From contig PBTQ01000026.1 in assembly GCA_002729125.1 (NCBI GenBank), forward strand, positions 1 to 47,380: 47,380 bases of DNA, given 5' to 3'. The translations under genes and the position numbers were made by a program. This document shows positions 44,644-47,380 of this stretch, in pieces. Each line of letters starts with the position of its first letter. Position 1 is the stretch's first letter. The DNA is from Acidimicrobiaceae bacterium. GTDB lineage: Bacteria > Actinomycetota > Acidimicrobiia > Acidimicrobiales > Aldehydirespiratoraceae. The notes beneath the pieces were generated by a model that was given only the letters and a program-made list of their open reading frames with translations, was not told the DNA's origin and searched no databases.

Positions 44644-45429
44644 ATGGAGCTTAAGGGGAAGACCATTCTGATCTCGGGGGCCGGTCCCGGTCTCGGTGGT
44701 GCGTGTGCGGCGGCGGCGCTGCGCGACGGCGCCAACGTGATCGCGACCGCTCGCAACCTGGATCGTCTGCAGGGCGCGGTTGCGGAACTCGATCCGGGCG
44801 GTGAGCGCACACTCGCGATGGTGGCCGACATCATGAATAGCGACGCGCTCGGTGTCGCCGTTGCCGCCGGCGTCGAACGATTCGGTGGGCTCGACGGTGT
44901 GGTCAATGTCGCCGCGTACGACGCAGTGATGGGCACCCTCCTTGACATGGACGCCGACACCTTTCGCCAGGTGCTCGAGGTCAACGTCTATGGCTCCACC
45001 AACCTCGTCCGGGCTGCCGTCCCGGCGCTCAAAACCAACGGCGGGGGAGCGGTCGTGCTAATCGGCTCGCAGTCGGCGATGAAGTCCAACCCGGTGCCCC
45101 AGGGGGTGTACGGGCCCTCGAAAGCGGCGCTGCTCGCTGTCGCCCGCGATCTGGCCAACGATCTCGGCCCGGACGGAATCCGCGTCAACACCGTCGTGCC
45201 GAGCTGGATGTGGGGGCCGAACGTGCAGATGTACTGCCAGTGGCAGGCGAGTGAGCGTGGGGTCGAGCCGGAGGACATCAAGAACGAACTGGCGAGCGCC
45301 AATGCCCTTCGAGCGATGGCGGCCGATACCGACGTTGCCGAATCGGTGATTTTCTTCCTCTCCGATCGCAGCTCGATGATTACCGGACAGCGCCTGTTGG
45401 TGAACGCCGGCGAGTACTTCGACACGTGA
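44644..45429 (+). CDS. SDR-family oxidoreductase
   Basis: ILISGAGPGLGGACA, VYGPSKAALLAVARDLA, FFLSDRSSMITGQRLLVNAG. Confidence 0.93.
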   Translation: MELKGKTILISGAGPGLGGACAAAALRDGANVIATARNLDRLQGAVAELDPGGERTLAMVADIMNSDALGVAVAAGVERFGGLDGVVNVAAYDAVMGTLLDMDADTFRQVLEVNVYGSTNLVRAAVPALKTNGGGAVVLIGSQSAMKSNPVPQGVYGPSKAALLAVARDLANDLGPDGIRVNTVVPSWMWGPNVQMYCQWQASERGVEPEDIKNELASANALRAMAADTDVAESVIFFLSDRSSMITGQRLLVNAGEYFDT

Positions 45430-46019
45430 CGGTCCCCGCCGTCCCGGCGGCCTCACTGGTGGTGATCGACGATCGGCCCGATCTCCACGTGTTGCTCGGC
45501 CGCCGGCGACCCGGTGCGTTCGTCGGCGACATGATCGTCTACCCGGGTGGCGCCGTCGATGACGACGACTGGCGACTCGGTCCGGCTCTCGTGCCCGGCG
45601 CCACGGCCCCCGGACTCTCCGCTGCCGATGCGGCGGTGTATATCCATGCCGCGATCCGCGAGACGCGCGAAGAGGTCGGTCTGTTCCCCGACCCGAACGA
45701 GTTGCACGACGGGTCGTCGTTCGCCGCGGTGGGGCACTGGACGACCCCCGAGGAGGTGCCGCGTCGCTACGACACCCGTTTCTTCCTCGCTCGCCACCCC
45801 GGTGGCGAGGCGCGGGTTGCCGATGACGAGCTCGTCGAGGTGTGGTGGGAGCGGCCGGCCGACACACTCGCTCGGATCGAAGCCGGTGAACTCGACGCCA
45901 TCACGCCGACGATCTCGTTCCTCACATCATTGTCGCGGTATCGACATGTAGCCGACGCCTTCGCCGGAACCGAACTCGGTCATCGGCATGCGTTTGCCTG
46001 GGGAATCACCACATTCTGA
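45426..46019 (+). CDS. NUDIX hydrolase
   Basis: YPGGAVDDDDW...AAIRETREEVGLF NUDIX box with insertion; GTGA overlap with SDR stop. Confidence 0.87.
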   Translation: MTVPAVPAASLVVIDDRPDLHVLLGRRRPGAFVGDMIVYPGGAVDDDDWRLGPALVPGATAPGLSAADAAVYIHAAIRETREEVGLFPDPNELHDGSSFAAVGHWTTPEEVPRRYDTRFFLARHPGGEARVADDELVEVWWERPADTLARIEAGELDAITPTISFLTSLSRYRHVADAFAGTELGHRHAFAWGITTF

Positions 46020-46071
46020 GCCGACGTCAGCCCTTCGTTGCTGTCTCGTGTCGATTTGTTTACATCTGGAT

Positions 46072-46100
46072 CTGACATCGTTGCGTCGCCGCACTAAGGT
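46072..46100 (+). promoter_or_regulatory. Sigma70-type promoter CTGACA-N17-TAAGGT
   Basis: -35-like CTGACA 46072-46077, 17-bp spacer, -10-like TAAGGT 46095-46100, upstream of hairpin-rich leader. Confidence 0.55.
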
Positions 46101-46106
46101 CCCCGA

Positions 46107-46285
46107 TGGGTAGGTGTCATACGGATGCAGGGCCGTTCTGACACCAGCTCGGGGGCTTTCGGCCCTCGAACCCCCTCCAGGGAAACTGGGGCCCGGTCGA
46201 CGGCGATCGCCGGCCGGGCCCAAGCCCAGAACACTTTGTGTCAACGGCGTGTTGAACCTCGCTGCGCTGTAGTACAACTCCGCCT
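46107..46285 (+). ncRNA. Candidate structured 5' leader (or independent small RNA) upstream of an aquaporin-family gene
   Basis: Successive hairpins: GGTGTCA/TGACACC with inner ACGG/CCGT (46113-46145); CCAG-GGAAA-CTGG; GGGCCCGG/CCGGGCCC (46189-46221) with inner palindrome CGGCGATCGCCG; ACAC-TTT-GTGT (46231-46241); CAAC-GGCGT-GTTG (46242-46254). Confidence 0.4.
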
Positions 46286-46963
46286 GTGAACGACCTCGCC
46301 CGCCGCCTGCTCGCCGAATTCCTCGGCACCGCCTTCCTTCTCGTCGGCGTCATCGGTTCGGGCATCATGGCCGAACGCCTTACCGACGATGTCGGGCTGC
46401 AGTTGCTCGCCAACGCAGCGGCCACCGTCGGCGTGCTCTACGCCGTCATCCTGATGTTCGGCGAGGTCTCCGGGGCGCATCTCAACCCGGCGGTCACACT
46501 CGCCGACATCCTTCTGCAGAAGCGGCCGTGGGTCGACCTCGGCCCGTATGTCGCAGTCCAACTGGCCGGCGGCGCCGTCGGCGTGATGGCCGCCAACCTC
46601 ATCTTCGACCTCAACCCGATCAACATCAGCGACAAAGTCCGCGACGGCGGCGGCCAGTACCTTGGGGAACTTATCGCCACCTTCGGCCTGATGGTGCTGA
46701 TCTTCTCCTTGGTGCGCACCGGCCGGGGCCACCTCGTTGCGTCGGCGGTCGCCGCCTATATCGGTGGTGCGTACTGGTTCACCTCGTCGACATCGTTCGC
46801 CAACCCGGCCGTGTCGGTCACTCGAACACTGTCGAACACCTTCGCCGGTATCCATCCCGGTTCGGCACCGATGTTCATCGTGATGCAGTTCGCCGGCGCC
46901 TTGCTCGCCGTCGCCGCCATCCGAGCGCTCTATCCCGACGACGCCGATACCGGAGTTTCCTGA
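46286..46963 (+). CDS. MIP/aquaporin family channel
   Basis: Two NPA motifs HLNPAVTLADIL and FANPAVSVTRTL; membrane helices; AEFLGTAFLLV start. Confidence 0.88.
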   Translation: MNDLARRLLAEFLGTAFLLVGVIGSGIMAERLTDDVGLQLLANAAATVGVLYAVILMFGEVSGAHLNPAVTLADILLQKRPWVDLGPYVAVQLAGGAVGVMAANLIFDLNPINISDKVRDGGGQYLGELIATFGLMVLIFSLVRTGRGHLVASAVAAYIGGAYWFTSSTSFANPAVSVTRTLSNTFAGIHPGSAPMFIVMQFAGALLAVAAIRALYPDDADTGVS

Positions 46964-47380
46964 TGCCTGAGTTCGTTGTTGTTCGCCACGGGCGGCCGTT
47001 GACCGAACGACTCGAATCGGGGATCGCCGACCCTTCTCTCGACGAGTTCGGTCGCTGGCAGGCCGAGCGAGTCTGCGCCTGGCTGGCCCACGAGCCGGTT
47101 GACACCGTCGTGGCGAGCCCGAAGGCCCGCGCCATCGAGACCGTGCAGCCACTCGTCGATCAGCTCGACATGCCGCTCACGATCGTCGTCGATCTCGACG
47201 AGATCGATCGCTTCTCGTCCGTCTACGTCCCCACCGACATGTGGGGGACCGAGGGCCTCGACATCCTCGAGGCGCTGGGGGAGAAGCGCTACGCCGACAT
47301 CGGGTACGACCCGCCCGACGTGTTCCGTGAACGGATCGCGAACGTCTGGCGCGAGCTCGTCGCCGACCCGCCCGGCGAAC
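46963..47380 (+). CDS. Histidine phosphatase family protein (3' end outside window)
   Basis: VVVRHGRPLTERL, VVASPKARAIETVQPL; TGATG overlap with upstream gene; open at window end. Confidence 0.85.
   Translation, partial: MPEFVVVRHGRPLTERLESGIADPSLDEFGRWQAERVCAWLAHEPVDTVVASPKARAIETVQPLVDQLDMPLTIVVDLDEIDRFSSVYVPTDMWGTEGLDILEALGEKRYADIGYDPPDVFRERIANVWRELVADPPGE

Follow-up and report, generated by a model that had tools for sequence, protein, structure and literature searches.

A candidate stand-alone small RNA family encoded beside an aquaporin gene in Acidimicrobiia

The window analysed here, a 47,380 nt stretch of DNA from an Acidimicrobiaceae bacterium, carries at positions 46107–46228 a structured small RNA of about 121 nt with a predicted transcription start at 46107, which was delimited by a covariance model match (R1/R2, 46107–46227) and by covariation among 28 distinct homologues (the promoter, the helices and the aquaporin gene described below lie on the forward strand). 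Judged from its sequence and that of its relatives, the locus is very likely a stand-alone small RNA and not the leader of the aquaporin gene which follows it. Since the adjacency to the aquaporin appears incidental and this gene has its own putative leaderless −10 element in the genus of the window, we assign the RNA to a new small RNA family instead of a switch. The family is unlisted in Rfam and restricted to one bacterial family; its structure is well supported and its function inferred, and it is ordinary in kind but new in identity. Non-coding RNAs of the Acidimicrobiia appear almost unstudied, and a full-text search found no paper pairing the name of the group with RNA terms. A well-delimited RNA family, supported by covariation, is now available, for which start, end and fold are predicted and a candidate seed is named, and a tempting misreading is corrected, in that an RNA beside a channel gene need not be the riboswitch of that gene.

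A closed structure of four helices was derived from the first 14 copies (alignment and RNAalifold). The outermost helix, P1 (46107–46111 with 46224–46228), is 97% paired with GC, GU and AU variants and encloses a linker and three hairpins, and its 3′ strand forms the end of the conserved RNA, beyond which conservation among the relatives falls off. Hairpin P2 (46113–46145) consists of the outer stem GGTGTCA/TGACACC (46113–46119/46139–46145) and an inner CGG/CCG stem (within ACGG/CCGT, 46121–46124/46133–46136) below a near-invariant GCAGGG loop (46127–46132), with two-sided compensation in 5 of 6 outer and 2 of 4 inner pairs. P3 (46149–46169) varies in both sequence and length, yet six of its seven pairs show two-sided compensation, as do 8 of the 14 pairs of P4, a strong GC hairpin and probable terminator stem (about 46189–46221). 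Between P3 and P4 lies the almost invariant linker CCCCCUCCAGGGA; the near-invariant CCCCCUCCAGGGAAACU (46171–46187), invariant in alignment A1, is the proposed seed and has an optional CCC/GGG mini-stem with a CCUCCA loop, for which the mean predicted unpaired probability over the homologues is 0.92.

The stems drawn in a prior, sequence-only reading of this DNA lie where it placed them and are backed by compensatory changes, and the covariation check it proposed for homologous leaders came out in their favour, with two-sided changes at 24 of 40 pairs and 95.3% of cells pairing over the 28 distinct sequences. Two-sided compensatory cells numbered 110, where shuffles gave 35.4 and slid controls no more than 27; alignment A2 was fitted to the covariance model and is thereby biased toward the structure, and the independent MAFFT alignment A1 agrees (11 pairs, 25 two-sided cells versus 7.2). 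GC-rich DNA folds readily, so that a chance fold of GC-rich intergenic sequence had to be weighed, but the fold energy of −70.1 kcal/mol compares with a shuffled mean of −55.3 (z −3.65, equalled by 0 of 200 shuffles), and covariation, fixed boundaries and a fixed promoter recur across six genera. The alignment itself, through covariation and fixed ends, refutes a chance fold, to which we give a negligible probability.

The promoter comprises a −35 hexamer CTGACA (46072–46077, read directly), where relatives carry TTGACA-, TTGAAC- or TTGGGA-like sequence, and a −10 hexamer TAAGGT (46095–46100) after a 17 nt spacer. It is present just as the sequence-only reading had described it, and its −10 is retained in relatives, nearly all of the 29 homologues having TANNNT at this position; a scan for the generic sigma-70 consensus did not report a promoter at 46072–46100. 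In the upstream alignment of relatives the gap between TANNNT and P1 is 7–8 nt in nearly all copies, so the RNA has what a stand-alone small RNA should have, a promoter of its own at a fixed distance. The start that had been proposed near 46107 agrees with this arrangement, as the 5′ stem opens 7–8 nt past the −10 and the predicted start is the first base of the first conserved helix. At the other end, the nucleotide match to distant relatives stops at about 46227, well short of the aquaporin start at 46286. A UUUU(U) tract directly follows P1 in genus g8, in most of g2 and in a single g9 genome, which makes the RNA appear terminated in these genomes, whilst termination in genera g1 and g7 is only assumed, as the alignment has no U-tract 3′ of the RNA in these two genera. 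An automatic terminator scan of the window was negative. The alternative to a leader that had been offered, a separate small RNA whose end is the strong GC stem, has support in the genus of the window.

The element turned up in 15 of 41 genomes searched at the nucleotide level, whilst the covariance model placed the RNA in 28 of the 51 genomes of the family and in six of its ten genera, usually as a single copy, and an independent sequence pattern recovered it in 26 of the 51. Searches across the order and class gave no confident match outside the family under strict filters, which may have passed over weak distant members; the other matches in the order and class were weak (E 0.004–0.1) or covered P4 only. 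In a pattern scan of genome contigs, at least 15 records score above 45 bits with the model among the 80 of 117 stretches listed, and among these stretches all 15 are Acidimicrobiia or Actinomycetota MAGs. The true-match records are named as Acidimicrobiaceae, Acidimicrobiales, Acidimicrobiia and other Actinomycetota MAGs, including one labelled Candidatus Microthrix sp. Acidimicrobiia from marine and other environments retain the RNA, also where they lack the channel gene.

The genes around the RNA (44644–47380) run from an SDR oxidoreductase and an overlapping NUDIX protein through the RNA to the aquaporin and a phosphoglycerate-mutase-like gene that overlaps it (ATGA); the SDR–NUDIX–RNA order is retained in most homologues and the downstream gene changes. 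The aquaporin (MIP) gene (46286–46963, Pfam PF00230, E 9e-25) is a neighbour outside the RNA system. Its putative leaderless start at 46286 would be served by a −10 of its own, TACAAC (46273–46278), 7 nt before the GTG, and this suggestion of the sequence-only reading holds in the window's genus, where TAGAAC or TACAAC is conserved 6–7 nt ahead of the GTG. Of the 28 RNA-bearing genomes, 16 have the aquaporin beside the RNA on the same strand; in the other 12 the aquaporin was found elsewhere (seven) or went undetected (five). One of the seven (G022) keeps only a 56%-identical relative elsewhere, and there only a short remnant of the adjacent aquaporin is left beside an intact RNA. At three loci (L035, L046 and L047) the large open frame that comes next reads from the opposite strand, and the genes found downstream of the RNA elsewhere are a phosphoglycerate-mutase-like gene, two amidohydrolases, a radical SAM gene and a methyltransferase. 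At least nine aquaporin-bearing genomes, mostly of genus g5, gave no RNA match. We judge the adjacency to be incidental because of the 12 genomes without it, the aquaporin deletion in which the RNA was kept and the opposite-strand neighbours.

The sequence-only reading had preferred to see here a riboswitch or attenuator of the aquaporin. In its general form this explanation makes the RNA a cis-acting 5′ leader of the aquaporin or whichever gene comes next, with a ligand or an alternative fold selecting between the P4 terminator and readthrough. The RNA does resemble such leaders, being structured, placed before a gene and furnished with a strong, terminator-like GC hairpin, its linker is near-invariant and unpaired as ligand-binding cores are, and it lies directly upstream of a same-strand aquaporin in most of the genomes that carry it. 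However, its 3′ end pairs with its 5′ end in P1, the downstream genes vary or sit on the opposite strand so that no constant downstream gene class emerges, the RNA outlives deletion of the aquaporin, and the aquaporin has its own leaderless −10 in the window's genus. No conserved mutually exclusive pairing was found either. The competing pairings that had been proposed are present in the window sequence, but the second GTGTCA copy (46238–46243) occurs in the window genome only, the four nearest relatives having GTGTCG; as it is missing from all near relatives, the ‘mutually exclusive’ pairing is a chance match, and the pairing of TGACAC with this copy was rejected. With the alternative helices unconserved, the conserved element ending at about 46227, synteny against it and no Rfam riboswitch matched, the aquaporin riboswitch or attenuator was rejected, and a cis leader in the general sense is very unlikely. 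In genera g7 and g10 the aquaporin starts 11–19 nt past P1 with no visible promoter of its own, which speaks for a leader; readthrough from the RNA promoter could therefore feed the aquaporin there, and the RNA may have a secondary cis effect in these two genera. As genomes without the channel gene also keep the RNA, it probably acts as a free-standing regulator and not as a switch of that gene.

Taken as a whole, the locus is in our view likely best explained as a stand-alone small RNA, which may act by antisense through its linker. An autonomous, terminated, structured RNA of about 121 nt would be made from its own promoter, with P1 joining its two ends and P2, P3 and the terminator hairpin P4 surrounding the unpaired, near-invariant, C-rich linker. 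Acting in trans, CCCCUCCAG would base-pair with the Shine-Dalgarno regions (CUGGAGGGG) of mRNAs and block their translation, in much the way that 6C/B11 does in mycobacteria. As the C-rich linker is predicted to be unpaired and is complementary to Shine-Dalgarno sequence, antisense regulation like that of 6C/B11 is our best guess, though taken alone this mode of action, argued by analogy, is a tentative one. The mycobacterial B11 has C-rich loops shown to be the target-pairing seed (PMC12395582, PMC10470900). Like the RNA described here, 6C/B11 (RF01066) is an actinobacterial stand-alone small RNA whose unpaired C-rich segments can pair with G-rich ribosome-binding sites, but 6C spans about 75 positions in Rfam and bears its C-rich segments in hairpin loops, whereas here a C-rich multibranch linker is closed by P1 within about 121 nt. 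The 6C covariance model had no match at the locus (E up to 5) and none in the 51 family genomes; as B11/6C act through C-rich loops and no 6C was found in the family, a comparable role for the RNA is plausible.

Sites complementary to the linker, searched as CTGGAGGGG-(2-9)-NTG, were unenriched before start codons and rarer in total than the backward control. One recurrent complementary site is the ribosome-binding site of a thiolase-domain gene (NCBIfam PRK08313), at which YTGGAGGGGG occurs in 16 of the 18 RNA-bearing genomes that have the gene versus 2 of 15 without detected RNA. In one genome (L207:1200-1240, G000:C35, minus strand) the thiolase Shine-Dalgarno matches the linker by perfect complementarity over 10 nt, and the computed duplex energy between linker and thiolase site is −29.4 kcal/mol versus −21.7 for an RNA-less genome. 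The site lies inside the end of the preceding gene, with a GGG codon in RNA-bearing genera and GGC or GGT in the RNA-less g5. The thiolase is only suggestive as a candidate target and stays a lead, because phylogeny confounds the comparison, which was post hoc, the motif also codes for the last residues of the gene before it, the RNA-less genomes come mostly from a single genus, and one genome (G013) has the motif without detected RNA.

Conservation of the two single-stranded segments goes far beyond the needs of a simple antisense seed, GGGAAAC of the linker and GCAGGG of the P2 loop being near-invariant as well. This, together with the single-copy, mostly syntenic occurrence of the RNA and the lack of enrichment of complementary start sites, would suit a protein-binding or structural RNA in which the loop and CCCCCUCCAGGGAAACU build a tertiary core for binding and titrating a protein, be it RNA polymerase, a translation factor or an RNA-binding regulator. 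Such an RNA has no known partner here, however, 6S, Ms1, SRP and all other Rfam families are unmatched, and the fold differs from the long hairpin with central bubble of 6S, so we regard this explanation as somewhat unlikely. That the GCAGGG loop and the junction linker form a tertiary core in a new multi-branch RNA family with a function beyond plain antisense, such as binding to the translation or transcription machinery, is a doubtful proposition. No family in Rfam 15 exceeded its gathering threshold. The best actinobacterial Rfam match of the region, Scr4115 (RF02829, Streptomyces RNA 4115), has GC-rich hairpins in common with the RNA but was rejected as a chance match because its score of 20 bits falls short of the cut-off of 58 (E 3) and recurs on the opposite strand. 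The RNAIII-type C-rich small RNAs of Staphylococcus aureus bind Shine-Dalgarno sequences through unpaired UCCC-type motifs, a resemblance to the stand-alone RNA that is a lead only, as they differ from it in size and phylum and are unrelated in sequence.

Upstream of the −35 lies a box of three repeats spaced by 11 bp (46037–46063: GTTGC at 46037, GTGTC at 46048 and TTTAC at 46059), identified in the alignment of upstream regions, which in most genera reads TTTGC-N6-GTTGC-N6-TTTGC with the same 11-bp period. The box is likely a putative activator site dedicated to the RNA promoter, which is probably regulated, and the triple repeat would be consistent with control by a dimeric activator of the response-regulator type. 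A TTTGC-like box occurs once per genome, at the RNA locus only, in four of the five genomes searched, the window's own genome exceeding the mismatch limit of the search.

As to additional copies, a second contig of genome G006 begins inside P4 and bears an aquaporin copy (L016:1-113), and therefore represents a duplicate or a mixed assembly. Genome G064 carries a second, diverged copy of the RNA (L047:1501-1619) without the upstream repeat box, flanked by a CoA-transferase-like gene on one side and an MFS-like gene on the other.
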